From: Rheinheimera riviphila
GTDB lineage: Bacteria; Pseudomonadota; Gammaproteobacteria; Enterobacterales; Alteromonadaceae
Length of the DNA stretch: 64,000 nt
Direction: 5' to 3'
NCBI RefSeq assembly: GCF_004005945.1
Contig: NZ_SACS01000004.1
Span: forward strand, 62,001-126,000
This document shows, piece by piece, positions 24,930 through 43,887 of this stretch. Within the stretch, counting starts at the first letter, position 1, and each line of letters opens with the position of its first letter. Both the position numbers and the translations under genes were made by a program. The notes under the pieces were generated by a model that saw only the letters and a program-made list of their open reading frames with translations, did no database searches and was not told the DNA's origin.

Positions 24930-25042
24930 GGTGGCCTTATCGGTCCTCTCGCAATACTAGTACGTGAACCCGGTCAGGTCTGGAAGGAAGCAGCCGAAGC
25001 GTATGACGTGTGTGCCGGGATGTGGCTGGTAAGGCTACCACC
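24930..25042 (+). ncRNA. ffs: Signal recognition particle 4.5S RNA
   Basis: RNA core of the signal recognition particle, binding Ffh and directing co-translational insertion of membrane proteins. The ends pair (GGTGGCCTTA with TAAGGCTACC). The apical domain has the almost invariant GTCAGGTCTGGAAGGAAGCA, with the GGAA tetraloop, and the partner strand GTGTGCCGGGATG. The length of 113 nucleotides is like the E. coli RNA (114). No obvious intrinsic terminator is seen downstream. Confidence 0.97.
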
Positions 25043-29247: not shown

Positions 29248-31287
29248 TTATCCGTCAATTTGTTGCCGAAACGGCGGGAGTGCTTTTAGCATGGCGCTGC
29301 CATACGATTTGGTGACTAAACGTCGGTCCAGAATCACAATTTTGCCTTGATCCTGTTCCTGCCGCAGCAGTCTACCACAGGCTTGCACTAGTTTCCTCGC
29401 CGCAGCGGGTACCGTTAATTGTAAAAATGGGTTGCCGCCACGTTTGGTGACAGCTTCTGCCATCGCTTCTTCAAATGGCGAAGTCGGCACCGCAAAAGGC
29501 AGTTTGGTGATGATGAGGTTCGTTAACAAGGCGCCTGGTAAATCGAGACCTTCGGAGAAACTTTGAGTGCCAAATAAAATACTGCCGTTGCCGCCGGTAA
29601 TTTTCATTTTATGCAAATCAAGCAGCGATTGCCGGCCGGCTTCGCCCTGGACTAATAAGGTAAATCCTTGTTCTCGTAACGCTTTCGCCACCTGTTCCAT
29701 CTGCCAGTAACTGGCAAACAGCACCAGATTACCCACCTCTTTATCCAGATATTGCGGCAATACGGTGATGAGTTCCGCAGTAAATAAATCGGAACTTGGT
29801 TCAGTGTTGAGTTTAGGAATATGGATTAAACCCCGTTCGGCATAGGCAAAAGGCGAGCTGACCTGCAACGTTTGTAAACCCGGATGGTCGGTGAGACCCA
29901 ATTCACGTTTGATGTAATCAAATGAATTTAAAGAGGTTAAGGTGGCAGAGCACAACAGCACCGCATGCGCTTGCGAGAACAACAATTCATCCAGCTGGAA
30001 ACTCACCGACAAAGGGCAGGCATGGCCACGAATTTGTTGGTCGCGTTGACTGAGCCAGCGCGCCTGATTGACATAGCTTGTTTGTGGCATCGACCACAGC
30101 TGCCACAGCTGATGTTGCCCGGAAAACTTTTGCTCCAGTACTGACAGTTCATGTTGCAGCGGTAGCAGTACTTTATTGCGTACCTTGCCTTCGCTGGCGA
30201 GCTCCAGTAATTGCTGAAACAATTTTTCGATACAAGACATCAACTTGCCGCTGTGTTCAGCCAAAGTGTCGGCCTGGCGCGAAAACAGCTCAGGCAATAC
30301 CGCATCGACAAAACGGTGATGCGGCGAGTTGGCAAACCACTGGCTTTGTTTGCTGATCGCCTGTTGCATCGGTTTCAGCAGATTAAAAAAGTCCTGCGAC
30401 AATTCGACCAATTTTAACGTTTCACGAATGGCACCATGGTGTGTCAGATTGCTCTGTAAATTCTGATACAGCTTGTCGATTTGTTGCTGCCAATAACTGC
30501 AATCGATATTGAGTTGGGTATCTGCGGAAAATAAATCGCGACCACAATCGGCCAAATGATGCGCTTCATCAATCACATAAATGCATTCTTCGGGTTTTGG
30601 CAAAATACTGTTGCCTGAGGCTAAATCGGCCAACAGCAACGCATGATTCACCACCAGCACCTGACTATTATCGATTTCCGCCCGCGCCAGATGAAAAGGG
30701 CAATTTTTATGAGCCGGATGTTGTTTATGGCAATGATAAGCATCGGCCTGAATGCCAGCCCAGGCTTGATCGGTGAGTTGTACCGGTAATGAGTCACGAT
30801 CGCCCAACCAGCTGCGGTCGTCCCAGGCTGCTTGTAGCTTGGCTAGCTGCGCCGGATCACTGGCTTGCCACTGTGGCAGTAAGTCGGGCTGTAATAATTG
30901 ATCACGCAATCGCTGCACACAAGCGTAGCGCTGGCGGCCTTTAATCAGGGTAAATTCAAAGGGAAGTTTGCTGTGACTTTGGAAAAATGGCAGATCTTTA
31001 AATACCAGCTGTTCTTGCAATGCCACTGTTGCCGTTGCTACCACCAAAGTTTTTTTCTTATTGAGCGCCAGTGGAATGGCGGCCAATAAATACGCCAGCG
31101 ATTTACCGGTACCAGTACCGGCTTCGATTAAACCAATCCGATCGTGGCTATGATAAGAGCCGGCAATGATATTGGCCATTTCAGCGACCAGTTTGTTTTG
31201 AGAAGGGCGTGGCTGATAGCCCGGTAACCCGGTTTTGATCAGTTGATGGATGGATTTGATTTCAGCTTTCAGTCCGGCGCTCAGCAT
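29248..31287 (-). CDS. dinG: ATP-dependent DNA helicase DinG-type (XPD-like)
   Basis: Superfamily 2 iron-sulfur helicase unwinding 5'-to-3', resolving R-loops and forked structures. The 679 residues contain Walker A AGTGTGKS (about 57-64), DEAH (VIDEAHHLAD), LLCSATLTSLNSFDY, and the C-terminal ACGRLLRQEQDQGKIVILDRRL. Between Walker A and DEAH, three candidate cluster cysteines are seen (YACVQR, YHCHKQ, KNCPFH). The fourth position of E. coli DinG is not a cysteine here. It heads the minus-strand run with the permease, priC and the deacetylase. Its start lacks a strong RBS. Confidence 0.9.
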   Translation of the reverse strand: MLSAGLKAEIKSIHQLIKTGLPGYQPRPSQNKLVAEMANIIAGSYHSHDRIGLIEAGTGTGKSLAYLLAAIPLALNKKKTLVVATATVALQEQLVFKDLPFFQSHSKLPFEFTLIKGRQRYACVQRLRDQLLQPDLLPQWQASDPAQLAKLQAAWDDRSWLGDRDSLPVQLTDQAWAGIQADAYHCHKQHPAHKNCPFHLARAEIDNSQVLVVNHALLLADLASGNSILPKPEECIYVIDEAHHLADCGRDLFSADTQLNIDCSYWQQQIDKLYQNLQSNLTHHGAIRETLKLVELSQDFFNLLKPMQQAISKQSQWFANSPHHRFVDAVLPELFSRQADTLAEHSGKLMSCIEKLFQQLLELASEGKVRNKVLLPLQHELSVLEQKFSGQHQLWQLWSMPQTSYVNQARWLSQRDQQIRGHACPLSVSFQLDELLFSQAHAVLLCSATLTSLNSFDYIKRELGLTDHPGLQTLQVSSPFAYAERGLIHIPKLNTEPSSDLFTAELITVLPQYLDKEVGNLVLFASYWQMEQVAKALREQGFTLLVQGEAGRQSLLDLHKMKITGGNGSILFGTQSFSEGLDLPGALLTNLIITKLPFAVPTSPFEEAMAEAVTKRGGNPFLQLTVPAAARKLVQACGRLLRQEQDQGKIVILDRRLVTKSYGSAMLKALPPFRQQIDG

Positions 31288-31642
31288 AAAACTACTTGTA
31301 TAAATTTACAGGTATATCATTGTAAACAGTCGGTGGATGACGTGCAAACGCAGATGAACGTCAAAAAAACGGCGACGAGACGCAAGTATTCGTTAGCAAA
31401 AGCCTGACCCTTTATTAACCAAACAACATTTGAATTTACTGGACGGAACTATTTACAGTGATTGTCGTGACGTGACAACGAATTAAAGGTTTTGTTCCAT
31501 CAAAATTGTTGACCTTTGAAAAAAAATACGTTTATTATCGAAGTCGGTTCACGGAAACGTTCCGTAACAGTTCGCCTGAAAGTAGATGATTCAGGCTAAA
31601 AAAATAGAATCACTGATAACAGTGGTCCAGGGAGAATAAAAC
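31288..31642 (+). other. dinG to TonB-receptor intergenic regulatory region
   Basis: These 355 bases lie between divergent genes. They contain a promoter for the receptor, a palindrome just downstream of it (ACGGAA-ACG-TTCCGT, 31551-31565) and a 7-bp leader hairpin (GCCTGAA 31574-31580, TTCAGGC 31590-31596). The receptor RBS (GGGAG) is near 31630. No ORF here looks real. Confidence 0.6.
31509..31538 (+). promoter_or_regulatory. Promoter upstream of TonB-dependent receptor
   Basis: TTGACC (31509-31514) and TATTAT (31533-31538) are separated by 18 bases of A/T-rich spacer; the register TTATTA gives 17. The palindrome at 31551-31565 would overlap the early transcribed region, where a repressor could act. 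Confidence 0.55.
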
Positions 31643-34606
31643 ATGTTTGCTGCGAATAAACTATCAAAGTCGGTAAAAATCGCGCTGGTCTTAGGGGTTG
31701 CCTCACCTCTGTTCTTTTCTCAGGGCGTTGTAGCCCAGGAAGAACCAGCTGCGGATCAAACAGTAGAAAAAATTCAGGTAACCGGTAGCCGGATCCGTAG
31801 TGCCAACGCCATGTCGACCAGTCCTATCGCGACCATCGGCGAAATCGAAATCAAACAACAACAGCAACCTGAAGTTGAACGTATTATTCGTAACCTGCCA
31901 TCTGCGCTGCCAGGTGACGGTTCAAACGTAAACAATGGTTCTGGTGGTGCTGCGACAATCAACTTACGTGGCCTGGGCCGTAACCGTAACTTGGTTCTGA
32001 TGAATGGTAAGCGGATGGTTCCGTTTAACACTGCAGGTCATGTTGATACTTCTTCTATCCCAACAGCACTGATCGACCGTATCGATCTGGTGACTGGTGG
32101 TGCATCAGCCGTATACGGTTCTGATGCAATTTCAGGTGCGATGAACGTCGTTCTGAAAAACGATTTCGAAGGCGTTGAATTCGAAACAGGTCATTCTCGT
32201 TCAGCTGAAGCTGATGCGTTCTCTCAAAATGCCAGCCTGACATTAGGTGGTAATTTTGATGATGACAAAGGTAACGCCGTTCTGTCTCTTGGCTGGTTAG
32301 ACCGTGATTCTCTGTTGTTAGGTCAGCGTCCTCTGGGTAACCTAGGTATTGTTACTGCCAACGGCGCGAACTATCAAAATTACCTCGATGGTATTGCTCC
32401 AACTCCACCAGCTGATCCAGCGTGTGGTGGTCCAGGTGCAGTAGCAGCAGGTGGTTCAGGTACTACGGTGCCAACGCGTATTGGTCTGTTTGGTGTGCCA
32501 TCCGTTGCCGGTCAGTTCCGTGACGGTGGTAACATTGGTGCAAACTGTTCGGTGTTTAACTTCAACCCGTTTAACTACTACCAGACTCCAGCTAAGCGTT
32601 ACAGCGCTACAGCATTGGCACGTTACAATCTGAACGACGAACATACTGTATACACAAACGTAAACTACGTAACGACTTCAGTCGACACGCAAATTGCGCC
32701 ATCAGGTATTTTCGGTACTGCCTTCTGGATCCCAATGGCAAACCCGTTCTTCAATACTCAAGCACGTAATTTCATCCTGAACGGTGCAAATGCTGCGAAG
32801 GGTAGCATGAATGCGACTAACTGGCGTGATACCAACAACAACGGCGTTGTTGACCAGGCCGACTCATTACGTCTGAATATTTTCCGTCGTACTGTTGAGT
32901 TAGGGGCTCGTTCTACTGGTTATGATTCTGACCAATTCCAGTTCGTTACTGGTCTGGAAGGTTTCCTGACTGATACCTGGGCCTATGAAGTTTCTGCTCA
33001 ACACGGTCAGACTAAACGTCTGGACGTGAGCGCTGGCTACACTAACGTTGCAAACATTGCAAACCAGCTAGATGCAGTGAACGAAACGACTTGTCGTAAT
33101 GGCGATTCAAGCTGTGTGCCAATCAACTTATTCGGTGGTTTCGGTTCTATCACTGAAGAAATGGCGGCTTATGCCCGTGCAACTGCTTTCGTTGCAACTG
33201 AATATCAACAACGTGTGGTTTCAGGTTCTATCAACGGTCCATTCGACGCTATCGTTTCTCCTTGGGCTGATTCACCACTGTCAATGAGCTTCGGTTATGA
33301 GTGGCGTGAAGAGCAAGCATACTCTAACCCAGACGAATGTTGGAAATTAGCACCTGCCAGCTGTTTAGGTGGCGCTGGTGGTAACCAACTGCCAGTAGGC
33401 GGTCTGTTTAAAGTGAACGAACTGTTCACTGAAGGTAAAATGTCGCTGGTTGAAGACGGCTTCATGACTGATGTTCTGGAACTGGAATTCGGTTACCGTC
33501 ATGGTAACTACAACACAGTTGGTGACAACGGTTCATGGAAACTGGGTCTGGCATGGCGTGTAAACGATGAATTGTTAATCCGTGCGATGAACAATGCCGC
33601 GACACGTGCACCGAACGTAGGTGAATTATTCGCGCCACTGACTTCAGGTCTGGATAACGCGACTATGGATCCATGTTCTAAAGCCAACGCTGCCAATTTA
33701 GCTACTAACGCAACTTTACGTGCCCGTTGTTTAGCAACTGGTATGACTGCTGCTCAAGTAGGCGCAATTGATGACATCATCTCTGGTCAAATCAACGTGT
33801 TCTCTGGTTCTAACCCAACCACACCACCAGATGCTGAAGATGCAAAAACCACCACAATCGGTTTTGTATGGACACCTGAGTTTGATGGCGTTGAACGTGT
33901 AAACTTGTCTATCGACTACTACGACATCAACGTTGATGGTTATATCGGTACCAACACACCACAAGAAGTATTGGATGGCTGTTATGTACTGGGCAACCAG
34001 GCACAGTGTGATCTGATCACTCGTGACGGTGGTACGCTGATTTCTGATATCTCTGGTATCGAGCAGTACATCACCAACCTGTCTTACCTGAAAACGACTG
34101 GTTATGAAGTTCAATATACTTTTGGCTTCAACTTAGCGTCTATGGGTACACTTGATTTCTCTGGTCAGTTAAACCATTACTTAGAAAGTGAATCTTTAAG
34201 TTCACCTACTTCTGAAGTACTGGACTGCAACGGTTACTTCGGTACCAGCTGTGCACCACAGCACGAAACTCGTGCTAACCAGCGTGTGACCTGGAACTAC
34301 GAAGATTACTCTTTAGGCCTGTTGTGGCGTTGGATGAGCGATCTTGACCGTGCACCAGAAGAAGCTGCAAGCAGTTTCGCTGCGTTCCGTCATATTGGCT
34401 CTTACAGCTACTTAGACATGTACGGCAGCTACCAGATCAGCGAAGCAGTTAAAGTGAACTTTGGTGTGGATAACCTGTTAGACCGTGAAGCTCCAGTTGT
34501 TGGTGGTGAAGCTGCTTCTACTTCGTGGAACAGCGGTAACACCTTCCCATCACATTACGACATGGTTGGCCGTACTTACCGCATGACTCTGAACGTTAAG
34601 TTCTAA
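31643..34606 (+). CDS. TonB-dependent receptor
   Basis: Large outer-membrane active-transport barrel of 987 residues. A signal peptide (cleavage near VVAQ, residues 29-32) is followed by VEKIQVTGSRI, a plug domain (about 50-180) with INLRGLGRNRNLVLMNGKR and GGASAVYGSDAISGAMNVVL, then a 22-strand barrel ending in RTYRMTLNVKF. Long loops carry spaced cysteine pairs and a calcium-loop-like DTNNNGVVD (residues 396-404). The type is that of Alteromonadales receptors for carbohydrates, peptides or other polymers; the substrate is not readable. Codon use is biased towards GGT, GCT, CGT and AAC, unlike its neighbours, suggesting high expression. Confidence 0.93.
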   Translation: MFAANKLSKSVKIALVLGVASPLFFSQGVVAQEEPAADQTVEKIQVTGSRIRSANAMSTSPIATIGEIEIKQQQQPEVERIIRNLPSALPGDGSNVNNGSGGAATINLRGLGRNRNLVLMNGKRMVPFNTAGHVDTSSIPTALIDRIDLVTGGASAVYGSDAISGAMNVVLKNDFEGVEFETGHSRSAEADAFSQNASLTLGGNFDDDKGNAVLSLGWLDRDSLLLGQRPLGNLGIVTANGANYQNYLDGIAPTPPADPACGGPGAVAAGGSGTTVPTRIGLFGVPSVAGQFRDGGNIGANCSVFNFNPFNYYQTPAKRYSATALARYNLNDEHTVYTNVNYVTTSVDTQIAPSGIFGTAFWIPMANPFFNTQARNFILNGANAAKGSMNATNWRDTNNNGVVDQADSLRLNIFRRTVELGARSTGYDSDQFQFVTGLEGFLTDTWAYEVSAQHGQTKRLDVSAGYTNVANIANQLDAVNETTCRNGDSSCVPINLFGGFGSITEEMAAYARATAFVATEYQQRVVSGSINGPFDAIVSPWADSPLSMSFGYEWREEQAYSNPDECWKLAPASCLGGAGGNQLPVGGLFKVNELFTEGKMSLVEDGFMTDVLELEFGYRHGNYNTVGDNGSWKLGLAWRVNDELLIRAMNNAATRAPNVGELFAPLTSGLDNATMDPCSKANAANLATNATLRARCLATGMTAAQVGAIDDIISGQINVFSGSNPTTPPDAEDAKTTTIGFVWTPEFDGVERVNLSIDYYDINVDGYIGTNTPQEVLDGCYVLGNQAQCDLITRDGGTLISDISGIEQYITNLSYLKTTGYEVQYTFGFNLASMGTLDFSGQLNHYLESESLSSPTSEVLDCNGYFGTSCAPQHETRANQRVTWNYEDYSLGLLWRWMSDLDRAPEEAASSFAAFRHIGSYSYLDMYGSYQISEAVKVNFGVDNLLDREAPVVGGEAASTSWNSGNTFPSHYDMVGRTYRMTLNVKF

Positions 34607-34678
34607 TCTGCGTAGTACTGGTGATAGTACTGGTGATAGCGCTGTAAGGTGCTGACACTGAAAAGTACGCTACGAACC

Positions 34679-34703
34679 GCCTGAACATCCAAAGTGTTCA
34701 GGC
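34679..34703 (+). repeat. 3'-UTR hairpin of the receptor gene
   Basis: A 9-bp stem (GCCTGAACA 34679-34687 with TGTTCAGGC 34695-34703) lies just before the terminator. Two perfect 12-bp direct repeats (34613-34624 and 34625-34636) lie between it and the stop codon. The hairpin may stabilise the mRNA 3' end. Confidence 0.5.
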
Positions 34704-34720
34704 AGCGTGTAGGAAGAATA

Positions 34721-34748
34721 AAAAAACCGCCTTCACCGGCGGTTTTTT
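34721..34748. terminator. Bidirectional terminator between the receptor and the DksA-like gene
   Basis: AAAACCGCC (34723-34731) and GGCGGTTTT (34738-34746), loop TTCACC. An A run before and T run after the stem make it usable for both convergent genes. Confidence 0.9.
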
Positions 34749-34775
34749 ATATTTGATGGGGCGCAGAGGTGCTGG

Positions 34776-35120
34776 TCATGCCGAGCAATGCTGACAGCGT
34801 TGCCGCGCTGGATCGTGCAATAAAAGTGCTTTTTCGATACGGTGCTCGCAATCGCAGCATAAACCGTACAAACCCATATCGATTAAACTAATGGCGGCTA
34901 GCAATGCTTCCAGTCGCATTGCTTTATGTTTTAACTGTGGTGTCAACCAAGGCTGTAACAATTCTGGCCAGTGACTAAGCGGATCCTGTTTAAGCTTTAA
35001 TGACAGAGTGCCAAATTCAGCCGGATGATCTTGCTGAATATACTGGACTATTTGCAGTCGCAATTGCTGGATCTCTTCAAGCATTTGCACTCTGAGCATC
35101 CTGGTCATCGCCTTTGGCAT
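34776..35120 (-). CDS. TraR/DksA-type C4 zinc-finger protein
   Basis: A 114-residue protein. Its C-terminus has the exact DksA zinc-finger spacing C-x2-C-x17-C-x2-C (CCDC ... CQHC). The N-terminal ~75 residues are helical but shorter than DksA's coiled coil. DksA relatives bind the RNA polymerase secondary channel and tune transcription; this one may act as a small accessory regulator or a zinc-linked paralogue. The ATG at 35120 follows GAGG; a TTG four codons upstream is less likely. It is divergent from the hvfA-like operon, sharing a 266-base control region. Confidence 0.82.
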   Translation of the reverse strand: MPKAMTRMLRVQMLEEIQQLRLQIVQYIQQDHPAEFGTLSLKLKQDPLSHWPELLQPWLTPQLKHKAMRLEALLAAISLIDMGLYGLCCDCEHRIEKALLLHDPARQRCQHCSA

Positions 35121-35386
35121 CTCAAACCTCAAATTACGTTGCTGGGACTTGCCTGATTGTGGTTAGTTTTGGCATTCAATGATCTGATACAGATCAAAGC
35201 GAAAGACATTAGCAAGCGCAGTGCCGATACTTTATGCTTAACATGCAAAGTGCATATTTTTAGATAACACCCAAAATATGTCGGTCATTTTTTTGCACGC
35301 TGAAATTTTATCGCGTCGATGCAGGTCTACTTAATGCAGTCGGGACACAACCCGGCCAACCTCAACCACAGCAAAGGATTAAGATC
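35121..35386. promoter_or_regulatory. Shared control region of the DksA-like gene and hvfABC-type operon
   Basis: Two dyads stand out. One is the perfect TGATCTG-ATA-CAGATCA at 35180-35196; the other is ATGCA-AAG-TGCAT at 35243-35255. The rest is A/T-rich around 35225-35320. No confident -35/-10 pair was found. A GGA-rich RBS (AAAGGA) is present near 35375. Regulation by metal or by the neighbouring zinc-finger protein is possible but unproven. Confidence 0.45.
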
Positions 35387-35782
35387 ATGACAACAATCAA
35401 TCGAAAAGTTACCGCAGCGGTAGGTGTTTTTGTTTTAGGTTCGCTGAGCAGCATAGGTTCGGCGCAAGCGCTTGATTTTACTGCGACTGAGTTAAGTGGT
35501 GGTTATCAGCTGGCAGCGACGGAAGCTTCTTGTGGCGCTGATAAAACCAAAACCGATGATAAAGCCAAAGAAGCAAAATGTGGTGCCGACAAAGCAAAAG
35601 CCACTGTCGATAAAGCCAAAGAAGGTAAATGTGGGGAAGGCAAGTGCGGCGAAGGCAAATGTGGTGCCGACAAAGCTAAAGCTGCAGCCACCGATAAAGC
35701 CAAAGACACCGCTGAAAAAGCCAAAGAAGGCAAATGTGGCGAAGGGAAATGTGGTGAAGGCAAATGCGGTGGCATGAACTAA
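35387..35782 (+). CDS. hvfA: HvfA-type RiPP metallophore precursor with six EGKCG motifs
   Basis: Exported precursor peptide of 131 residues. A Sec signal peptide (about residues 1-28, ending SAQA) is followed by a Lys/Ala-rich mature region with eight cysteines (49, 65, 82, 87, 92, 117, 122, 127). EGKCG occurs six times as two tandem triplets (79-93 and 114-128); two further sites read EASCG and EAKCG. In characterised homologues, EGKCG cysteines are oxidatively modified by the DUF692/DUF2063 pair to an oxazolone- or thiooxazole/thioamide-type group that binds copper. The two genes for that pair follow with one-base gaps. Copper sequestration in the periplasm is the likely role. It is often annotated only as a low-complexity protein. 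Confidence 0.88.
   Translation: MTTINRKVTAAVGVFVLGSLSSIGSAQALDFTATELSGGYQLAATEASCGADKTKTDDKAKEAKCGADKAKATVDKAKEGKCGEGKCGEGKCGADKAKAAATDKAKDTAEKAKEGKCGEGKCGEGKCGGMN
35621..35770 (+). repeat. Two triplets of a 15-base coding repeat in hvfA
   Basis: Bases 35621-35665 and 35726-35770 each consist of three 15-base units encoding EGKCG. Units differ at third codon positions (GGT/GGC/GGG, AAA/AAG, TGT/TGC), so the peptide is conserved while the DNA has drifted. Confidence 0.9.
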
Positions 35783-35783
35783 C

Positions 35784-36653
35784 ATGACTGCGTTTGGCGG
35801 GGTAGGGCTTGGGCTGCGACGGGAGCTATTGGATCCGGTGTTGCAGCATAAACCAGACATCATTGATTTTTTTGAAGTCGCCCCGGAAAACTGGCTGCCG
35901 TTTGGTGGCAAGCTCGGTCAGAAGTTTCGCGCTTTGACCGAGCAACATCGCTTTATTTGTCACGGCTTGTCGTTATCGCTGGGCAGCCCGGATCCGCTGG
36001 ATCTGGAGTTTCTGGCCGCGGTGAAAACCTTTCTCAAAACCCATCAAATCAAGCTTTATAGCGAACATTTAAGTTATTGCTCGGCTGGCGGACATTTATA
36101 CGATTTAATGCCCATTCCTTTTACCAGTGCAGCAGCGCGTTATGTGGCAGGGCGCATTCGTCAGGTGCAGGACGTGCTGGAGCAGCAGCTGGTGATTGAA
36201 AATGTGTCCTATTATGCTGCGCCAGGTCAGGAAATGTCGGAGCTGGATTTTACGCTGGAAGTACTGCAACAAGCCGATTGTGGCTTGCTGCTGGACGTCA
36301 ACAATGTCTATGTCAATTCGGTGAATCACAGCTATGACGCCCGGGCATTTATCGCCGCGATGCCGACACAACGACTGGTATACGGCCATATCGCTGGTCA
36401 TTATCGGGCGTCAGATACTTTGCTGATCGACACCCATGGCGCTGCGGTGGTAGACCCGGTGTGGCAGCTGTTAGAGTTTGCCTATCAGCGGCATGGCGAA
36501 TTTCCAACTTTGCTTGAGCGCGATTTTAATCTGCCGGAGTTAACTGTGTTGGAGCAGGAATTATTGCAAATCAAAAGCTTGCAGCAACAAGCTTCAGTCG
36601 CACAAACCTCAACACAACAAACCTCGCTAAAATCAATAACGGCAGTTGGATAA
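35784..36653 (+). CDS. hvfB: MNIO-family (DUF692) peptide-modifying oxidase, HvfB-type
   Basis: Multinuclear non-heme iron oxidase with a TIM-barrel fold, predicted to convert the precursor's EGKCG cysteines. The 289-residue protein has GVGLGLRRELLD, DFFEVAPENWL, CHGLSLSLGS and the metal-site regions YSEHLSY, VIENVSYY, LLLDVNNVYVNSVNH, YGHIAGH, DTHG and LLERDFNLP. The last ~25 residues are Gln/Ser/Thr-rich and probably disordered. The ATG follows the hvfA stop by one base (TAACATG), implying coupled translation. Confidence 0.9.
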   Translation: MTAFGGVGLGLRRELLDPVLQHKPDIIDFFEVAPENWLPFGGKLGQKFRALTEQHRFICHGLSLSLGSPDPLDLEFLAAVKTFLKTHQIKLYSEHLSYCSAGGHLYDLMPIPFTSAAARYVAGRIRQVQDVLEQQLVIENVSYYAAPGQEMSELDFTLEVLQQADCGLLLDVNNVYVNSVNHSYDARAFIAAMPTQRLVYGHIAGHYRASDTLLIDTHGAAVVDPVWQLLEFAYQRHGEFPTLLERDFNLPELTVLEQELLQIKSLQQQASVAQTSTQQTSLKSITAVG

Positions 36654-36654
36654 C

Positions 36655-37407
36655 ATGAGCGACTTTCAGCAGATCCAAAGCCAATTTGCCGCTGCCATTC
36701 GCGATCCGGCACAGCCACTGTTACCCGGTGTTTCACCAGAACGGATGGCTGTGTATCAGGAACTGTTTTTTAACAATGTCCTTAATTTTGTCAGCAGTGC
36801 TTTTCCAGTGCTCAGCACTTTATATAGGGAACCGCAGTGGCACGCTAAAACCAGGTTGTTTTTTCAAAGCAGCAATTTGCACAGCCCATATTTTCTGGAT
36901 ATCGCTGAGAGTTTTTTAAACTGGCTCCAGCAACAACAGCTTGCGCCTGAAGACCCCCCTTTTTTACTGGAATTAGCACATTACGAGTGGATCGAGCTTT
37001 ATCTGGCAACCGCGCATCGGCAGTGTCACCAGCCGCTGCTTATGCAGACAGAAGCGCAGCTAGCAACCAGCCAACTGGCCATGGATGAACTCGCGTTGTT
37101 GTTGTGTTATCAATATCCGGTCAGTCAAATCAGCGCAACATTCAGACCTGAACGGCCAGCGGCACCAAGTTTATTGCTGGTGTATCGAGATTTGGAAAAC
37201 GAGATTAAATTTATGGCGTTAAATCAATTAAGTGCCAGTTTGTTGCAGCTGCTGATCAATACGCCTGGCGCCCGTTTGGCGGAATTAACTACCAGCTTGC
37301 AGACGTTAGCCCCACAATTAACCAACCAGCAGATTGGCGAAGGTGCGCTACAATTGCTGCAGGATTTGGCGAAGAAAGGCGTGATCCGAGCTTTTCAAGC
37401 TGCGTAA
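36655..37407 (+). CDS. hvfC: DUF2063 partner protein, HvfC-type
   Basis: Partner of the DUF692 enzyme that recognises the precursor and presents it to the oxidase in related systems. The 250-residue protein has the DUF2063 N-terminal helical domain (DFQQIQSQFAAAIRD, PERMAVYQELFFNNVLNFVSSAFPVL, SPYFLDIAESFLNWL) and a C-terminal winged-helix-like part. It begins one base after the hvfB stop, again as TAACATG. No DoxX-type hvfD gene follows. Confidence 0.88.
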   Translation: MSDFQQIQSQFAAAIRDPAQPLLPGVSPERMAVYQELFFNNVLNFVSSAFPVLSTLYREPQWHAKTRLFFQSSNLHSPYFLDIAESFLNWLQQQQLAPEDPPFLLELAHYEWIELYLATAHRQCHQPLLMQTEAQLATSQLAMDELALLLCYQYPVSQISATFRPERPAAPSLLLVYRDLENEIKFMALNQLSASLLQLLINTPGARLAELTTSLQTLAPQLTNQQIGEGALQLLQDLAKKGVIRAFQAA

Positions 37408-37464
37408 AATTCATTACCATGTCCGACCTTAATTTCAACTCTGATGAACAACGGGAATTCCCTG

Positions 37465-37584
37465 ATGGCAGATGCAAATTTCAAAGAATCTTTTGGCGTG
37501 GTGCAGTTTTTGTTATTCCTGGTGGTGTTCACAGGTTTATTGTGTCTGGTGCCGATTTTGCGCTGGTTACAAATTCTGGGTTAA
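37465..37584 (+). CDS. 39-residue single-span membrane peptide
   Basis: Short ORF reading MADANFKESFGVVQFLLFLV then VFTGLLCLVPILRWLQILG. A charged N-terminus precedes a hydrophobic stretch of about 22 residues (14-35) and a short amphipathic end. GGGA lies eight bases before the ATG, and an intrinsic terminator follows 20 bases after the stop. Both support translation as a real gene. I do not recognise the family. It could be the last gene of the hvf operon or an independent small gene before apt. Confidence 0.6.
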   Translation: MADANFKESFGVVQFLLFLVVFTGLLCLVPILRWLQILG

Positions 37585-37603
37585 GCCACTTTTTGATCAG
37601 AAG

Positions 37604-37626
37604 AACCGCCGGTTGGCGGTTTTTTT
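37604..37626 (+). terminator. Intrinsic terminator before apt
   Basis: AACCGCC (37604-37610) pairs with GGCGGTT (37615-37621) across a GGTT loop, with a T run to 37626. Confidence 0.9.
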
Positions 37627-37689
37627 GTCACTAGCCGCAGCACACCGTCTGCCATTGATGTTTTATATCTTTTTAGAGTGACCACGATT

Positions 37690-38241
37690 ATGAGTCAAGC
37701 AACAGCGTTCACCACGATGCTCGAACAGGTAATTAAATCAGTACCGGACTATCCAAAACCGGGCATTTTATTTCGCGATGTGACCAGTCTGATGCAGGAT
37801 CCGGTGGCTTTTGCCGCGGTGATCGACAACTTCAAACAGCGTTATGCCAATCAGGGTTTTACCAAAATTGTCGGTACTGAATCCCGTGGTTTTATCTTTG
37901 GTGCGCCACTGGCGTATGCCTTAGGTGTTGCTTTTGTGCCAGTGCGTAAACCGGGCAAGTTACCGCGTGAGCGCATCGCCGAAAGTTATCAGCTGGAATA
38001 TGGTCAAGACACGCTGGAAATTCACCTGGATGCGATAGTGCCTGGTGATAAAGTATTGTTAGTTGACGACTTATTGGCGACTGGTGGTACTATTGATGCC
38101 ACCACCAAATTAGTGCGCCGTTTAGGTGGCAACGTCAGTGATGCTGCTTTTGTGGTGAATCTGCCGGATTTAGGTGGTGATCAACGTCTCGCGGCGTTAC
38201 AGTTAAATGTCTATAGCCTGATTGATTTTGCTGGCCACTAA
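37690..38241 (+). CDS. apt: Adenine phosphoribosyltransferase
   Basis: Salvages adenine to AMP using PRPP. The 183 residues match E. coli Apt exactly in length. Seen are [47 protein letters not shown] and the PRPP loop [14 protein letters not shown]. The ATG at 37690 is chosen over a GTG four codons earlier by alignment. It begins the apt-dnaX-ybaB-recR block known from enterobacteria. Confidence 0.97.
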
Positions 38242-38298
38242 GCACTGAATTTGCTGCTGGGCCTTTCAGGCCCGGTTGTTGGTAATCAAGGAAAGCAG

Positions 38299-40530
38299 AT
38301 GAGTTATCAGGTGTTAGCGCGAAAATGGCGGCCACAAAACTTTGGCCAGCTGGTAGGGCAGGACCATGTCAAAGCGGCCCTGACCAATGCGCTGACCCAG
38401 AACCGTCTGCATCATGCCTATTTATTCACCGGCACCCGTGGTGTCGGTAAAACCACCATCGCGCGGATCTTTGCCAAAAGTCTGAACTGTGAACAAGGGG
38501 TCACCGCGACACCTTGTGGTGTCTGCAGTGCCTGCGTTGAAATCGACAAAGGCTACTTCGTTGATTTACTTGAAATTGATGCCGCTTCGCGCACCAAAGT
38601 TGAAGATACCCGCGATTTACTCGACAACGTGCAATACGCACCTAGCCGTGGTCGTTACAAGGTTTACCTGATCGATGAAGTGCATATGCTGTCCAAACAC
38701 AGTTTTAATGCGCTGCTCAAAACGCTGGAAGAACCACCGCCACACGTAAAGTTTCTGCTGGCGACCACCGATCCGCAAAAATTACCCATTACTGTCTTAT
38801 CGCGTTGCCTGCAGTTCAGTTTAAAAGCGCTGAGCCAAAGCCAAATTAAACAGCATCTGGCTTATATTCTGAGCGAAGAAAAAATTGCCGCCGAAGATGA
38901 AGCGCTGGCGTTATTAGCGCGCGCCGCCAAAGGCAGTTTGCGGGATTCACTGAGTTTAACCGATCAGGCAATTGCCCAAACCAACGGCCATATTGAACTG
39001 GGGCCAGTGCGCGAAATGCTGGGGTTTTTGGAACAATCCTGGGCTGAATTATTACTGCAAGATGTGCTGAACCGCGACTTGCCGTTGATGCAACACCATT
39101 TGATGCAGCTGATGACGCAGCATAGCCAGGTGCATTCGGTGCTGGACGATATGCTGTCGCTGTTGCATCTTGCTGCGTTGTGCCAGTTCCAGCTCAGTGC
39201 AGCTGAACTTGCTTTGACCGAGTCGGCGTTTGTACGAGCCGTGGCAAAATCGCAAAGTGCTGAAGCTATTCAGCTGTATTACCAGCTGTTGTTGTCTGGC
39301 AAAAAAGATTTACCCTATGCCCCGGATGCTCGTACCGGCATTGAAATGGCGTTATTGCGCGCAATTGCCTTTGTCCCGGCGACGCCTGGCCAGGATATCA
39401 CCGAAAACACCACGCAGAGCGGCCGTGCTGCGGCACTTTCTGCTGCAGGCTTACCGACGATGACAGCTCCGGTTGCAAGTTCGACGACAAGCCCTGTTGC
39501 AGTGCCGGTTCAGGCTGCTGTTGTTGCCGATCTACCTGTTGCCGAACCACAAACAGCGCCTGTGGATACCGTTGCGGATCCAGCGACACCACAAATTGAC
39601 CCGATCACGGCCAGTATTATTGCTCGTCGTGCACTGGCGGCTACTGCCGGAGCTGTTGACGAAAAAAAGTCTGAGCGCCAACCGGCGCCTCAGCTTGCGA
39701 AACCAGTTGCACCGCAGATTACAGTTACGGCTGTATCTGCAGCACCGCTGACAATTCCAACGCCAACTCCAGCACCGGCGCCAGTTACTGCTGAAGAGCA
39801 AGACGATGAATGGCAGCCAATCACGACCATGGCAGTCATCAATACATCCGTCGACAATCATGATCCCGATGAAGAGCCAGATCCGGTGGCTGATAGCGCC
39901 GGTGGTGATTGGGCCTGGCAGCAATATCAGGCGGATGAACCAAGCTCTGATCCCGACAAAGATAAAGCGTCAGCGAGTGACGAGGCGCAACCAATCCGCC
40001 ATGCACTGCTCGATAGTTTGCAGGTACTGGACCAGGACAATACCGATTTCTCTGCTGAATCCGTGCAGCATGTGGCGGTCGCCGACATCAGCAGCCAGCC
40101 GCTGTATTTTCATGGCAGCATCGACGCCGGTAATTTTGCCGTTAAATATGCCAGTCAAATAGACCCATGGGCAGCGCGGATTGATCAGCTGGCTATTGGC
40201 GGCCTGATGCGGCTGTTTCTGTTACATGCCAGCGCTGAGCTGCACGGCTCGCAGCTAAAACTGCAGGTGATGGCCAGTCAACGCCATTTGGATAACGAGA
40301 AGAACCAACAGACGCTGCAAACGGTGTTGTCTGGTTCTTATCAACAACCGCTGACACTCGACATCGAATTTTGTGAACAAGTACCAGATTGCCCGATCGC
40401 TATTCAGCAGCGGATTGACGAAGCACGCCGGATATATGTCGCTGCAGTACTGGCGGCAGATCCGTTGGTGCAGGCGCTGCAACAACATTTTGCCGCCGAA
40501 TTAGTGGCAGATAGCTTGTTGGTTAATTAG
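38299..40530 (+). CDS. dnaX: DNA polymerase III subunits tau and gamma
   Basis: Clamp-loader ATPase. Full-length tau (743 residues) links the loader to the polymerase and DnaB; a shorter gamma arises by frameshifting. N-terminal AAA+ features: GTRGVGKT (45-52), a zinc module with cysteines 64, 73, 76 and 79, and LIDEVHML. A Pro/Ala-rich linker (about 370-560) precedes the C-terminal tau domain. The ATG at 38299 has AAGGAAAG upstream; a start at 38251 would add 16 unsupported residues. A -1 frameshift signal at codons 455-457 predicts a 458-residue gamma. Confidence 0.97.
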   Translation: MSYQVLARKWRPQNFGQLVGQDHVKAALTNALTQNRLHHAYLFTGTRGVGKTTIARIFAKSLNCEQGVTATPCGVCSACVEIDKGYFVDLLEIDAASRTKVEDTRDLLDNVQYAPSRGRYKVYLIDEVHMLSKHSFNALLKTLEEPPPHVKFLLATTDPQKLPITVLSRCLQFSLKALSQSQIKQHLAYILSEEKIAAEDEALALLARAAKGSLRDSLSLTDQAIAQTNGHIELGPVREMLGFLEQSWAELLLQDVLNRDLPLMQHHLMQLMTQHSQVHSVLDDMLSLLHLAALCQFQLSAAELALTESAFVRAVAKSQSAEAIQLYYQLLLSGKKDLPYAPDARTGIEMALLRAIAFVPATPGQDITENTTQSGRAAALSAAGLPTMTAPVASSTTSPVAVPVQAAVVADLPVAEPQTAPVDTVADPATPQIDPITASIIARRALAATAGAVDEKKSERQPAPQLAKPVAPQITVTAVSAAPLTIPTPTPAPAPVTAEEQDDEWQPITTMAVINTSVDNHDPDEEPDPVADSAGGDWAWQQYQADEPSSDPDKDKASASDEAQPIRHALLDSLQVLDQDNTDFSAESVQHVAVADISSQPLYFHGSIDAGNFAVKYASQIDPWAARIDQLAIGGLMRLFLLHASAELHGSQLKLQVMASQRHLDNEKNQQTLQTVLSGSYQQPLTLDIEFCEQVPDCPIAIQQRIDEARRIYVAAVLAADPLVQALQQHFAAELVADSLLVN
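39649..39693 (+). promoter_or_regulatory. Programmed -1 frameshift signal in dnaX
   Basis: The slippery heptamer A-AAA-AAG (39663-39669) is in the correct phase. GGAG at 39649-39652 ends 10 bases upstream and can act as a stimulatory Shine-Dalgarno. A hairpin follows (CTGAGCGCC 39671-39679 with GGCG-C-CTCAG 39684-39693, one bulge). After slippage the ribosome reads GTC and then TGA (39672-39674). This matches the E. coli dnaX arrangement element by element. Confidence 0.9.
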
Positions 40531-40757
40531 CCGACCATTGCGCGCAAAAGGCGGGATCCCTTGTATTTTGACTGTGATCTGATTATCGTGTCGCCCAGAA
40601 CAAAGTGTAGCAGCGCACAGCTTGTCACTGCTGCAGTGAAGCGTCATACCGCCATTTGACCCGACGTTTCCGGTAACTATCTGACCATCGCCAGCGGGTT
40701 GCAGCAGATCCGAATTGCCGCGATGATCCAAGCCTAACGCAAAGAGAGAGCACAATT

Positions 40758-41084
40758 ATGTTTAAAGGTGGCATGGGTAATATCATGAAACAGGCGCAGC
40801 AGATGCAGGAAAAAATGCAGCGTGCGCAAGAAGAAATCGCCAAATTAGAAGTGACTGGCGAATCAGGTGCCGGCATGGTGAAAGTGACAATGCTGGGTAA
40901 CCACAACGTGCGTCGCGTCAGTATTGATGACAGCCTGATGCAAGATGACAAAGAAATGCTGGAAGATTTAATTGCTGCAGCCATCAACGACGCAGTACGT
41001 CGGGTTGAAGAAACCAGCAAAGCAAAAATGTCGGGTGTTGCCGGTGGCATGCAGTTGCCGCCTGGTTTTAAAATGCCGTTTTAA
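40758..41084 (+). CDS. ybaB: YbaB/EbfC family nucleoid-associated protein
   Basis: Small dimeric DNA-binding protein of 108 residues. It has the family N-terminus [21 protein letters not shown], the central [22 protein letters not shown] and the C-terminal [12 protein letters not shown] tweezer-like dimer with a long N-terminal helix is known for the family. It lies between dnaX and recR, the conserved order. An AGAGAG RBS precedes it. Confidence 0.96.
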
Positions 41085-41126
41085 TGCGGCCTTCAATGAC
41101 AGTAAACAGCTTCAGGATGAGATGGC

Positions 41127-41729
41127 ATGGGTAAGCATACACCGCTGGTACAGCAGTTAATTGATGCTTTGCGATTGTTACCTTCAGTGGGGCCAAAGTC
41201 GGCGCAGCGCATGGCATATCAGCTGTTGGAGCGTAATCGCGAAGGTGGTATGCAATTGGCGCAAGTGCTGCAGCAGGCGATGCAAAAAGTCGGACATTGC
41301 CAGCAATGCCGTACTTTTTGCGAAGGCCAGTTGTGTCAGATCTGTACCCATCCGGTCCGTGGTCATAGTGCGGTCATGTGTATTGTGGCCAGCGCCGCCG
41401 ATTTATATGCGATTGAACAAACAGGCTTGTTCGCCGGCCGTTATTTTGTATTACGTGGTCAGCTGTCACCGCTCGATGGCATTGGCCCGGCTGAGCTTGG
41501 CCTGGATCAACTTGCCAAACAACTGGCGCAAGGCCAGGTACAGGAAGTGATCCTGGCGACCAACCCCACGATTGAAGGTGATGCCACCGCTTTTTATATT
41601 GCGGAACTGTGCAAGAAACATCAGATCCAGGTATCGCGGCTGGCGCAGGGCATGCCGGTTGGTGGTGAGTTGGAATATGTTGATGGCAGTACGCTGTCGT
41701 ATGCCTTTAGTGGCCGTAAGCCGTTTTAA
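41127..41729 (+). CDS. recR: Recombination protein RecR
   Basis: Works with RecF and RecO to load RecA on SSB-coated gaps. The 200 residues have the N-terminal helix-hairpin-helix ([18 protein letters not shown]), a C4 zinc finger ([19 protein letters not shown]), a Toprim domain (about 80-175) with [10 protein letters not shown] and [14 protein letters not shown], and a C-terminal Walker-B-like part. It is followed by a strong terminator. Confidence 0.97.
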
Positions 41730-41760
41730 CCGACCAACAATTTTATCCAGATGATTCACC

Positions 41761-41785
41761 AGAGCCTGACGTTTCAGGCTCTTTT
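41761..41785 (+). terminator. Intrinsic terminator after recR
   Basis: AGAGCCTGA (41761-41769) pairs with TCAGGCTCT (41774-41782), followed by TTTT. It insulates the heat-inducible htpG gene. Confidence 0.9.
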
Positions 41786-41811
41786 GACGCAACAACCAAC
41801 TAATTTCCCCC

Positions 41812-41838
41812 CTTGAAACTTATGCCTTACTCCCCCAT
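41812..41838 (+). promoter_or_regulatory. Sigma-32 heat-shock promoter of htpG
   Basis: CTTGAAA (41812-41818), 14-base spacer, CCCCAT (41833-41838) followed by ATA. This is a near-perfect match to the sigma-32 consensus and spacing, about 125 bases before the htpG start. Confidence 0.92.
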
Positions 41839-41961
41839 ATAGCTGTCAGTTCAAAACCAAATTGGTTTTAAATTTTCGGGTACATCCCCTGCAACGCCTG
41901 CGGCACTCATGGGGTACCAGGGTGGCGTGGCTGGCGGTAATATTGATCACAGGAGCGGTAA

Positions 41962-43887
41962 ATGACTGAAACAACTCAAAAACAAACGCATGGCTTTCAG
42001 GCCGAAGTAAAACAACTGCTGCAGTTAATGATCCATTCTTTGTATTCAAACAAAGAAATCTTTTTGCGCGAACTGGTTTCCAACGCTTCGGATGCGGCTG
42101 ACAAACTGCGCTTTTTAGCCTTATCTGACAGTAGCTTATACGACAACGACGGCGATTTACGCGTGCGGATCAGCCTCGATGAAGCCGCCAAAACCATTAT
42201 CATCAGCGACAACGGTATTGGGATGACCCGCGATGAAGTGATTAGTCACTTAGGCACTATCGCTAAATCCGGCACCAAAGAATTTTTCTCGCAATTATCC
42301 GGCGAAGCCAGCAAAGACTCACAGCTGATTGGCCAGTTTGGGGTTGGTTTTTACTCAGCATTTATTGTCGCCGACAAAGTCACAGTCCGTACCCGCAAAG
42401 CCGGTGCCGCTGCCGACAGCGCTGTGGAATGGGAATCATCAGGTGAAGGTGAATACACTTTAACGCCAATCAGCAAATCAAGCCGTGGTACCGATATTAT
42501 CCTGCACCTGCGCGACGCCGAAACGGAATTCCTCGGTAAATGGAAAGTCGAAGGCATCGTTACTAAATATTCTGATCACATCTCTATTCCGGTACAAATG
42601 TGGGAAGAGGGCAGCGCTGAAACTGAAGGCGAAGACGGCGAAAAAGTTGCGGCAACTGAAGGTCACTGGAAAGTGGTCAACAAAGCCACTGCCCTTTGGA
42701 TGCGTGACAAATCTGAAGTGTCAGAGACCGAATATCAGGAATTCTACAAGCACATTTCGCATGACTGGACCGAGCCATTAAGCTGGAGTCACAACAAAGT
42801 TGAAGGCAACAGCAACTATACCAGCCTGCTCTATGTGCCGAAAAAAGCGCCGTTTGATTTATGGAACCGCGAAGCCCGTCATGGTCTGAAACTCTATGTG
42901 CAGCGCGTGTTTATCATGGATGACGCTGAACAGTTTATGCCAAGTTACCTGCGCTTTATCAAAGGTGTACTGGACTCCAGCGATTTACCGCTGAACGTGT
43001 CGCGCGAAATTCTGCAAGATACCAAAGTGACGCAAAGCCTGCGCAAAGGCTGTACGTCACGCGTACTGAAAATGCTGGAAAAAATGGCCAAGGCTGAAGA
43101 TCAAGCTGAATACCAGACCTTCTGGAATGAGTTTGGTCAGGTGATCAAAGAAGGCCCGGCTGAAGATTTCGCCAACAAAGATCAAATTGCTAAATTGCTA
43201 CGTTTCGCCTCAACAAACAACGACAGCGATATTCAAAACGTTGGTTTAGAAGCCTATGTCAGCCGGATGAAAGAGTCGCAAAGCGACATTTATTACCTGG
43301 TCGGCGACAGCTATGAAGCGGTCAAACACAGCCCACATTTGGAAGTGCTGCGCAAAAAAGGCATCGAAGTATTGTTGTTATCTGATCGCATCGACGAATG
43401 GCTGATGCAACATCTGACCGATTTTGACGGTAAAAAACTGCGGTCGGTGGCCAAAGGTGGTTTGGATCTGAGTAAGTTGGATGACCAAGCGACCAAACAA
43501 GCACAGCAAGAAACTGAACAACAGTTTGCTGCGGTGGCGGCACGCTTTAAAGTTGCGCTGGGTGACCAGGTCAAAGACGTCAAAGTCAGTCATCGTTTAA
43601 CCGACAGCCCGGCTTGTATTGTCACTGACGAGTTCGATATGAGCACGCAGATGATGAAGCTGATGGAATCGGTTGGCCAGAAAGTGCCTGAAGTAAAACC
43701 AATTTTTGAGTTAAACCCTGATCATCAGTTGGTGAAGCATATTGCCGACGTCCAGGACGAAAGCCGCTTTAAACAATGGGCCGAGGTTATTTTTGAACAG
43801 GCGCTACTGGCAGAACGTGGCAGTCTGAAAAATCCGGCTAGCTTTGTCACCCGCTTAAACAGCTTGTTGCTGGATCTGGCGAAGTAA
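41962..43887 (+). CDS. htpG: Molecular chaperone HtpG (Hsp90)
   Basis: Dimeric ATP-dependent chaperone. The 641-residue protein has the GHKL ATPase domain with [23 protein letters not shown] and [15 protein letters not shown]. The middle domain contains the catalytic-loop region around LNVSREILQ, and the C-terminal dimerisation domain is present. A short acidic linker insertion ([16 protein letters not shown], about 215-230) separates N and middle domains. The upstream sigma-32 promoter fits heat induction. Confidence 0.98.

Follow-up and report, generated by a model that had tools for sequence, protein, structure and literature searches.

A captophorin/oxazolin-type hvfABC operon in Rheinheimera riviphila and a conserved upstream element resembling an ECF-type promoter

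Introduction

What does a compact three-gene operon with a cysteine-repeat precursor make in Rheinheimera riviphila, and what switches it on? The question is raised by hvfABC, which occupies positions 35387 to 37407 of a 64,000-nucleotide stretch (the window) of contig NZ_SACS01000004.1. Our analysis points to an intact captophorin/oxazolin-type operon that would make a Cu(I)-binding 5-thiooxazole peptide and be started from a promoter resembling those of extracytoplasmic function (ECF) sigma factors, a reading to which we give a probability of about 0.85. The chemistry, export, copper binding and physiological role of the window peptide are those that we infer from characterised relatives.

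The enzyme pairs FonBC, HvfBC and NgoBC install 5-thiooxazoles with the loss of four hydrogens per site, modified FonA and gonophorin bind copper as seen by native mass spectrometry, and the name captophorin is proposed (PMC13097082). A sequence-only reading of the window had expected cysteine-derived heterocycles or thioamides from an operon with EGKCG repeats and DUF692 and DUF2063 proteins; the operon type stands, but the product of this type is now described as a 5-thiooxazole, not an oxazolone or thioamide (PMC13097082, PMC13419390).

Results

The hvfABC gene set

All three genes lie on the forward strand: hvfA (35387..35782, 131 aa) encodes the captophorin/oxazolin-type precursor, hvfB (35784..36653, 289 aa) a multinuclear non-haem iron-dependent oxidative enzyme (MNIO, DUF692) acting as peptide maturase, and hvfC (36655..37407, 250 aa) a DUF2063 partner with a C-terminal domain of the RiPP recognition element (RRE) type, RiPP standing for ribosomally synthesized and post-translationally modified peptide. 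Both junctions read TAA-C-ATG, with one base between the stop and the next ATG. NCBIfam models recognise each product above its cut-off, namely NF050137 (the HvfA-family repeat model, 47.6 bits, cut-off 19.5), NF003818 for HvfB (426.4 bits, cut-off 360) and NF050145 for HvfC (262.4 bits, cut-off 142). Among Pfam models, PF05114 (DUF692) matches HvfB with 347 bits (cut-off 25), while PF09836 (DUF2063) and PF22106 match HvfC with 76 and 80 bits (cut-offs 27.2 and 27). The sequence-only reading was thus right about the hvfABC type, the DUF692 enzyme followed by a DUF2063 protein, and the two TAACATG junctions. Its remark that such precursors are easily missed holds for Pfam, where no model matches HvfA, DUF2282 included, but not for NCBIfam, where NF050137 finds it. 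The operon is an intact three-gene hvfABC set of the captophorin/oxazolin type (fontiphorin, oxazolin), and the single PF05114 match and the single HvfC match of this genome are both located in it.

The precursor carries exactly six EGKCG motifs, as had been claimed, together with one EAKCG and one EASCG, giving eight cysteines, seven of them in a KCG context. The EGKCG motifs form two triplets (35621..35665 and 35726..35770) separated by a lysine/alanine-rich stretch, with EAKCG and EASCG N-terminal to both. Since the six copies are six distinct 15-mers, differing from one another by 1–4 nt and encoding the same five residues, the repeat is kept as protein sequence and does not arise as an artefact of DNA repetition. 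Export, also part of the earlier claim, agrees with an N-terminus that shows by eye, with no predictor applied, a basic n-region, a hydrophobic core and an A-x-A site, as expected of a Sec-type signal peptide (residues 1–28, up to AQA, 35387..35470). In oxazolin HvfA, the signal peptide aids recognition (PMC13419390).

Just past the signal peptide lies the sequence LSGGY (residues 36–40, 35492..35506). The pattern [LM]xxGY is present in all 22 main Rheinheimera precursors, in all five precursors of the second loci described below, and in 17 of 20 precursors from a sample of the order, making LxxGY a candidate recognition element for HvfC. It may fall within an already known leader, because the N-terminal leader region of Microbulbifer precursors is reported as highly conserved (PMC12538549).

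In the enzyme HvfB, residues H60, H95, E139, D171, N173, N174, H202, D216, H218 and E245 do not vary among 27 genus HvfB sequences (27/27), and the iron ligands are presumably to be sought among these motif residues. A loss of the metal-binding His/Asp/Glu set, which would have spoken against the sequence-only reading, was looked for, and the set is complete and invariant. The metal-ligand motif residues align in part with those of 3BWW, the closest solved relative by sequence (239 bits), which is also the best Protein Data Bank (PDB) match of the AlphaFold model (pLDDT 86.1, pTM 0.86) in a Foldseek search (E 1.7e-22, TM 0.79 by query, 40% identity); the next fold matches are TglH and MbnB chains. 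In H. influenzae HvfB, N175, D242 and H244 of site 3 are required for activity, and the active cofactor is a mixed-valent di-iron cluster attained only with HvfC (PMC13419390). Site-3 type D-x-H and N motifs are found in the window enzyme and are invariant in 27/27, and, matched by spacing, D216 and H218 would be the counterparts of D242 and H244. Substrate choice of the EGKCG (Lys-Cys) type is shaped in FonB by R15, R16 and F250, with D249 as the proposed base (PMC13097082); the corresponding places, set through the conserved GLGLRR and ERDF stretches and not by alignment with FonB, are taken in HvfB by R12, R13, F248 and D247, which are again invariant at all 27 loci. HvfC matches 3DEE by sequence (E 2.1e-7) and has the DUF2063-RRE composition of a PME-type 1 partner.

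The operon recurs throughout the genus. HvfC relatives were found in 22 of the 22 Rheinheimera genomes searched, so that its presence here is not due to chance; the 27 matches, the window and 26 others, comprise 22 main and five second loci, and an EGKCG precursor precedes hvfB at every one of them. Main precursors contain 1 to 8 EGKCG and 4 to 10 KCG motifs (n = 22). The second loci, present in 5/22 genomes, encode an EF-hand-type EGKCG precursor, a type that has already been described (PMC12452194). Downstream of these second loci, on the opposite strand, DoxX-like and multi-helix membrane products were seen by eye.

Among characterised systems, oxazolin hvfABCX of Haemophilus influenzae shares with the window a Sec-signal precursor with six EGKCG-type cysteines, an MNIO HvfB with D-x-H and N ligand motifs, and HvfC (PMC13419390), the repeats being arranged as three pairs in its HvfA and as two triplets with lysine/alanine-rich spacers here. 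Fontiphorin fonABC of Fontimonas thermophila has the same three-gene minimum and the same Arg-Arg and Asp-Phe residues in its MNIO, but it has seven modification sites in FonA and belongs to another host lineage (PMC13097082). Bulbicupramide mmrABC is likewise a genus-wide three-gene EGKCG cluster in Microbulbifer, with a conserved N-terminal region and 5–8 cysteines (PMC12538549). The bufferins (BufA1, DUF2282), including the sigma-F operon of Caulobacter, also combine an MNIO and a DUF2063 partner with a signal-peptide precursor and ECF control (PMC3511200); the window operon lies outside the bufferin 1 class, since its precursor has no DUF2282 match and HvfB scores 264.7 against the BufB model NF050167 (cut-off 310). 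Methanobactin MbnB shares the fold of HvfB in 7dz9, 7fc0 and 7tcr, but HvfB reaches only 41.5 bits against the MbnB model TIGR04159 (cut-off 325), and the methanobactin system, with MbnB/MbnC, serves copper acquisition from a precursor without a signal peptide (PMC12452194).

These relatives also bear on the function of the peptide, which might instead be a thiol/thiooxazole oxidant sink or an envelope redox protein, with hypochlorite or peroxide defence as its main task and copper binding secondary. The H. influenzae homologue is induced by hypochlorous acid in an RpoE2-dependent manner together with msrAB (PMC7907618), redox genes are found, rarely, in such clusters (PMC12452194), and the window operon has an ECF-like element upstream. 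Against this, FonA and gonophorin were found to bind copper by native mass spectrometry (PMC13097082) and the Microbulbifer product is called Cu(I)-binding (PMC12538549). We consider an oxidant sink improbable and favour a copper-binding peptide.

A conserved element upstream of hvfA

The proposed start signal of the operon is the element TGAAAT-N17-GGTCTA at 35301..35329 on the forward strand. When all 4293 spaced 5-mer pairs of the window upstream region were counted across the genus, the top three were GAAAT-N17-GGTCT in neighbouring registers, and these were the only pairs present in all seven distant genus representatives. GAAAT-N17-GGTCT is exact at 20 of the 22 main loci and present with at most one mismatch at 22/22. 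The spacing is equally strict: allowing one mismatch, all 22 genus loci have the words at a distance of 17 and 0–5 at any other distance from 10 to 25, the corresponding numbers in the order sample being 9/20 and 0–3. The reversed words gave 0 hits in either sample (shuffle means 0.15 and 0.17). In the order sample, the element lies about 72–112 nt before the ATG and accompanies nine of the ten loci where apt was seen in the stretch and none of the ten where it was not; at loci L133 and L138 (family f7), it was not found within 300 bases.

A further sample of named genomes comprised at least 80 loci, of which 58 were scanned, 18 having been left out for lack of a KCG precursor and four (L176, L187, L193, L231) for lying near contig ends. 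Among the loci listed, 30 of 34 Alteromonadales-type loci have the element (Rheinheimera/Arsukibacterium 6/7, Pseudoalteromonas 5/8, Shewanella 14/14, other Alteromonadales-type 5/5), compared with one of 24 other gammaproteobacterial loci, mostly Methylococcales; shuffles gave a mean of 0.87 and a maximum of 3/58, and the base preceding GAAAT is T in 30 of the 31 loci with the element. The spacing control on the listed loci, which still includes the four near contig ends, gave 31/62 at 17, 0–5 elsewhere and 3 for the reversed pattern. The samples overlap in part (L167/L168/L171 with G018/G015/G001, and L243 with L130) and share descent, so these counts are not independent events.

Two hexamers 17 bases apart with a −10-like GGTCTA have the look of an ECF sigma promoter, and from this footprint we take TGAAAT-N17-GGTCT to be a likely promoter for an ECF sigma factor. 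Alternatively, it could be the two half-sites of a transcription factor, an explanation favoured by the fact that neither a sigma gene of the own genome nor a regulon in this genome or in the 22 genus genomes could be tied to the element. Its halves, however, are neither inverted nor direct repeats of each other, the spacing is exactly 17 in all cases counted, the element lies some 72–112 nt (order loci) ahead of the ATG, and the pattern scan listed no sigma-70-like site between 35132 and 35386. A transcription-factor site, such as that of an activator, is rather unlikely in our estimate, if less so than the oxidant sink, and an ECF-type promoter is preferred. Such a promoter would fit, because the homologous operon of H. 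influenzae needs RpoE2 (PMC7907618); ECF control has been demonstrated there. The sigma-F motif of Caulobacter, GTAACC-N16-CGAA, is different (PMC3511200).

A number of observations weigh against the reading of an intact captophorin/oxazolin-type operon with an ECF-like start. Four of the 34 scanned Alteromonadales-type loci (among those listed) lack the element, the apt-linked order locus L134 has it with two mismatches, and it was not found at the five second genus loci (0/5). In scans of the own genome, the element was not enriched relative to its reversed form (8 versus 13 and 8 versus 5). The strict form TGAAATT-N16-GGTCTW has 17 matches in the 22 genus genomes, 14 at hvfA and three elsewhere, with five for the reversed pattern, and no regulon was seen either in the own genome or, with this strict pattern, in the genus genomes. 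The own genome has 16 Sigma70_r4_2 matches, some of which are response regulators and not ECF factors; upstream of these 16 loci there is only one site with one mismatch, at a response-regulator locus, and none of them is a candidate for a link to the element. Two further points set the operon apart from oxazolin hvfABCX. HvfA scores 33.7 bits against the H. influenzae-type equivalog NF050188, below the cut-off of 95, and thus belongs to the HvfA family outside that equivalog. There is also no DoxX/HvfX gene: none was seen by eye in the open reading frame listing for 31000–42000, and of the two DoxX matches of the genome one is on contig C33 and the other on C21, the window being on C59, so that the operon is not hvfABCX in the strict sense, which includes a DoxX-like gene. 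EGKCG clusters of three genes that lack DoxX do modify their precursors, as with fontiphorin (PMC13097082) and Microbulbifer mmrABC (PMC12538549), and DoxX is not defining for captophorin clusters, fontiphorin having none.

Neighbouring genes and signals

Downstream of hvfC, an unannotated small open reading frame (37465..37584, forward strand) encodes a conserved 39-aa membrane protein with a single helix, which lies between hvfC and apt at 22/22 genus loci. Its 11 distinct versions share M1, A2, D3, N5, F6, K7, F10, F22, L26, C27, P30 and W34; Pfam and NCBIfam searches gave nothing useful. We asked whether it is a fourth pathway member replacing the missing DoxX protein. Its constant place directly after hvfC in the genus speaks for this, as does the order sample: where a genome has an over-cut-off HvfC, every match (E ≤0.0015; 20 in all) is no more than 1.2 kb away from it. 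Yet 24 of the 44 matches at this threshold, which leaves out eight weaker ones beside hvfC, come from genomes without an over-cut-off HvfC, and the protein is absent from the listing for the five second hvf loci. Further families of the order have the protein too, usually adjoining apt: in the 43 loci of its best matches, apt is seen in 35, hvfB/hvfC in 20, and apt without any hvf gene in 15, one of the latter having only about 450 bases upstream. Because of these 15 loci, the protein belongs with apt, and hvf comes and goes. Two loci without apt (L083, L095) have the gene between pepD-like and carA-like genes, as judged by eye. A fourth pathway gene was accordingly rejected as the main explanation and seems very unlikely; the 39-aa protein is probably outside the peptide pathway.

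A terminator-like hairpin (37598..37627, forward strand; −18.9 kcal/mol, z −5.07 against 200 shuffles) lies 3′ of the 39-aa gene and before apt; it was not listed by the pattern scan. Upstream, at 35184..35197 on the forward strand, the palindrome CTGATACAGATCAA resembles an FNR box. CTGAT-N4-ATCAA is exact upstream of hvfA at 15 of 22 genus loci and present with at most one mismatch at 17. In part of the genus it closely precedes the ECF-like element; the window copy is about 115 bases further up, nearer the divergent gene. That gene (34776–35132, reverse strand) encodes a 118-aa protein with a zinc-finger-like CxxC...CxxC end and a weak similarity, below all cut-offs, to DksA/TraR-type regulators. 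A TonB-dependent receptor (31643–34606, forward strand; PF00593, PF07715) is encoded further upstream, and the window also contains a bacterial small signal recognition particle RNA (24938–25034, forward strand, 72.4 bits).

Discussion

Taken together, we propose the following mechanism. A sigma factor encoded elsewhere would start the operon from TGAAAT-N17-GGTCTA, and HvfA would be made with its Sec signal peptide. HvfC, through its RRE, would hold the N-terminal part of HvfA and, together with HvfB as an MNIO with a mixed-valent di-iron cluster, would oxidise the EGKCG cysteines to 5-thiooxazoles, with a predicted mass change of about −4 Da per site, or about −24 to −32 Da for six to eight sites. 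The modified HvfA would then be exported and bind Cu(I) in the periplasm, where it may buffer excess copper or protect against envelope oxidative stress.

Operon type and chemistry are already known from other bacteria, and the fresh part is the shared start signal, which points to a way in which these operons may be turned on. For neither TGAAAT-N17-GGTCT nor LxxGY as a motif was a description found in searches of open-licence papers. More tentatively, at a little under even odds in our judgement, the Alteromonadales-type captophorin operons (Rheinheimera, Pseudoalteromonas, Shewanella, Alteromonas and kin) may have in common an ECF-type promoter that is private to them and has hardly any other target, with one unlinked ECF sigma factor devoted to the copper-binding peptide.

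For an operon type that is common and whose chemistry is known, a conserved start signal, common to a broad set of marine and freshwater bacteria, brings the question of what induces the copper peptide within direct experimental reach, and LxxGY offers a defined target for how HvfC selects its substrate ahead of Sec export. Captophorin-type genes are reported as unexpressed in native Microbulbifer (PMC12538549). If true, the private ECF-type promoter together with LxxGY would provide a handle on the stress that activates silent captophorin operons.
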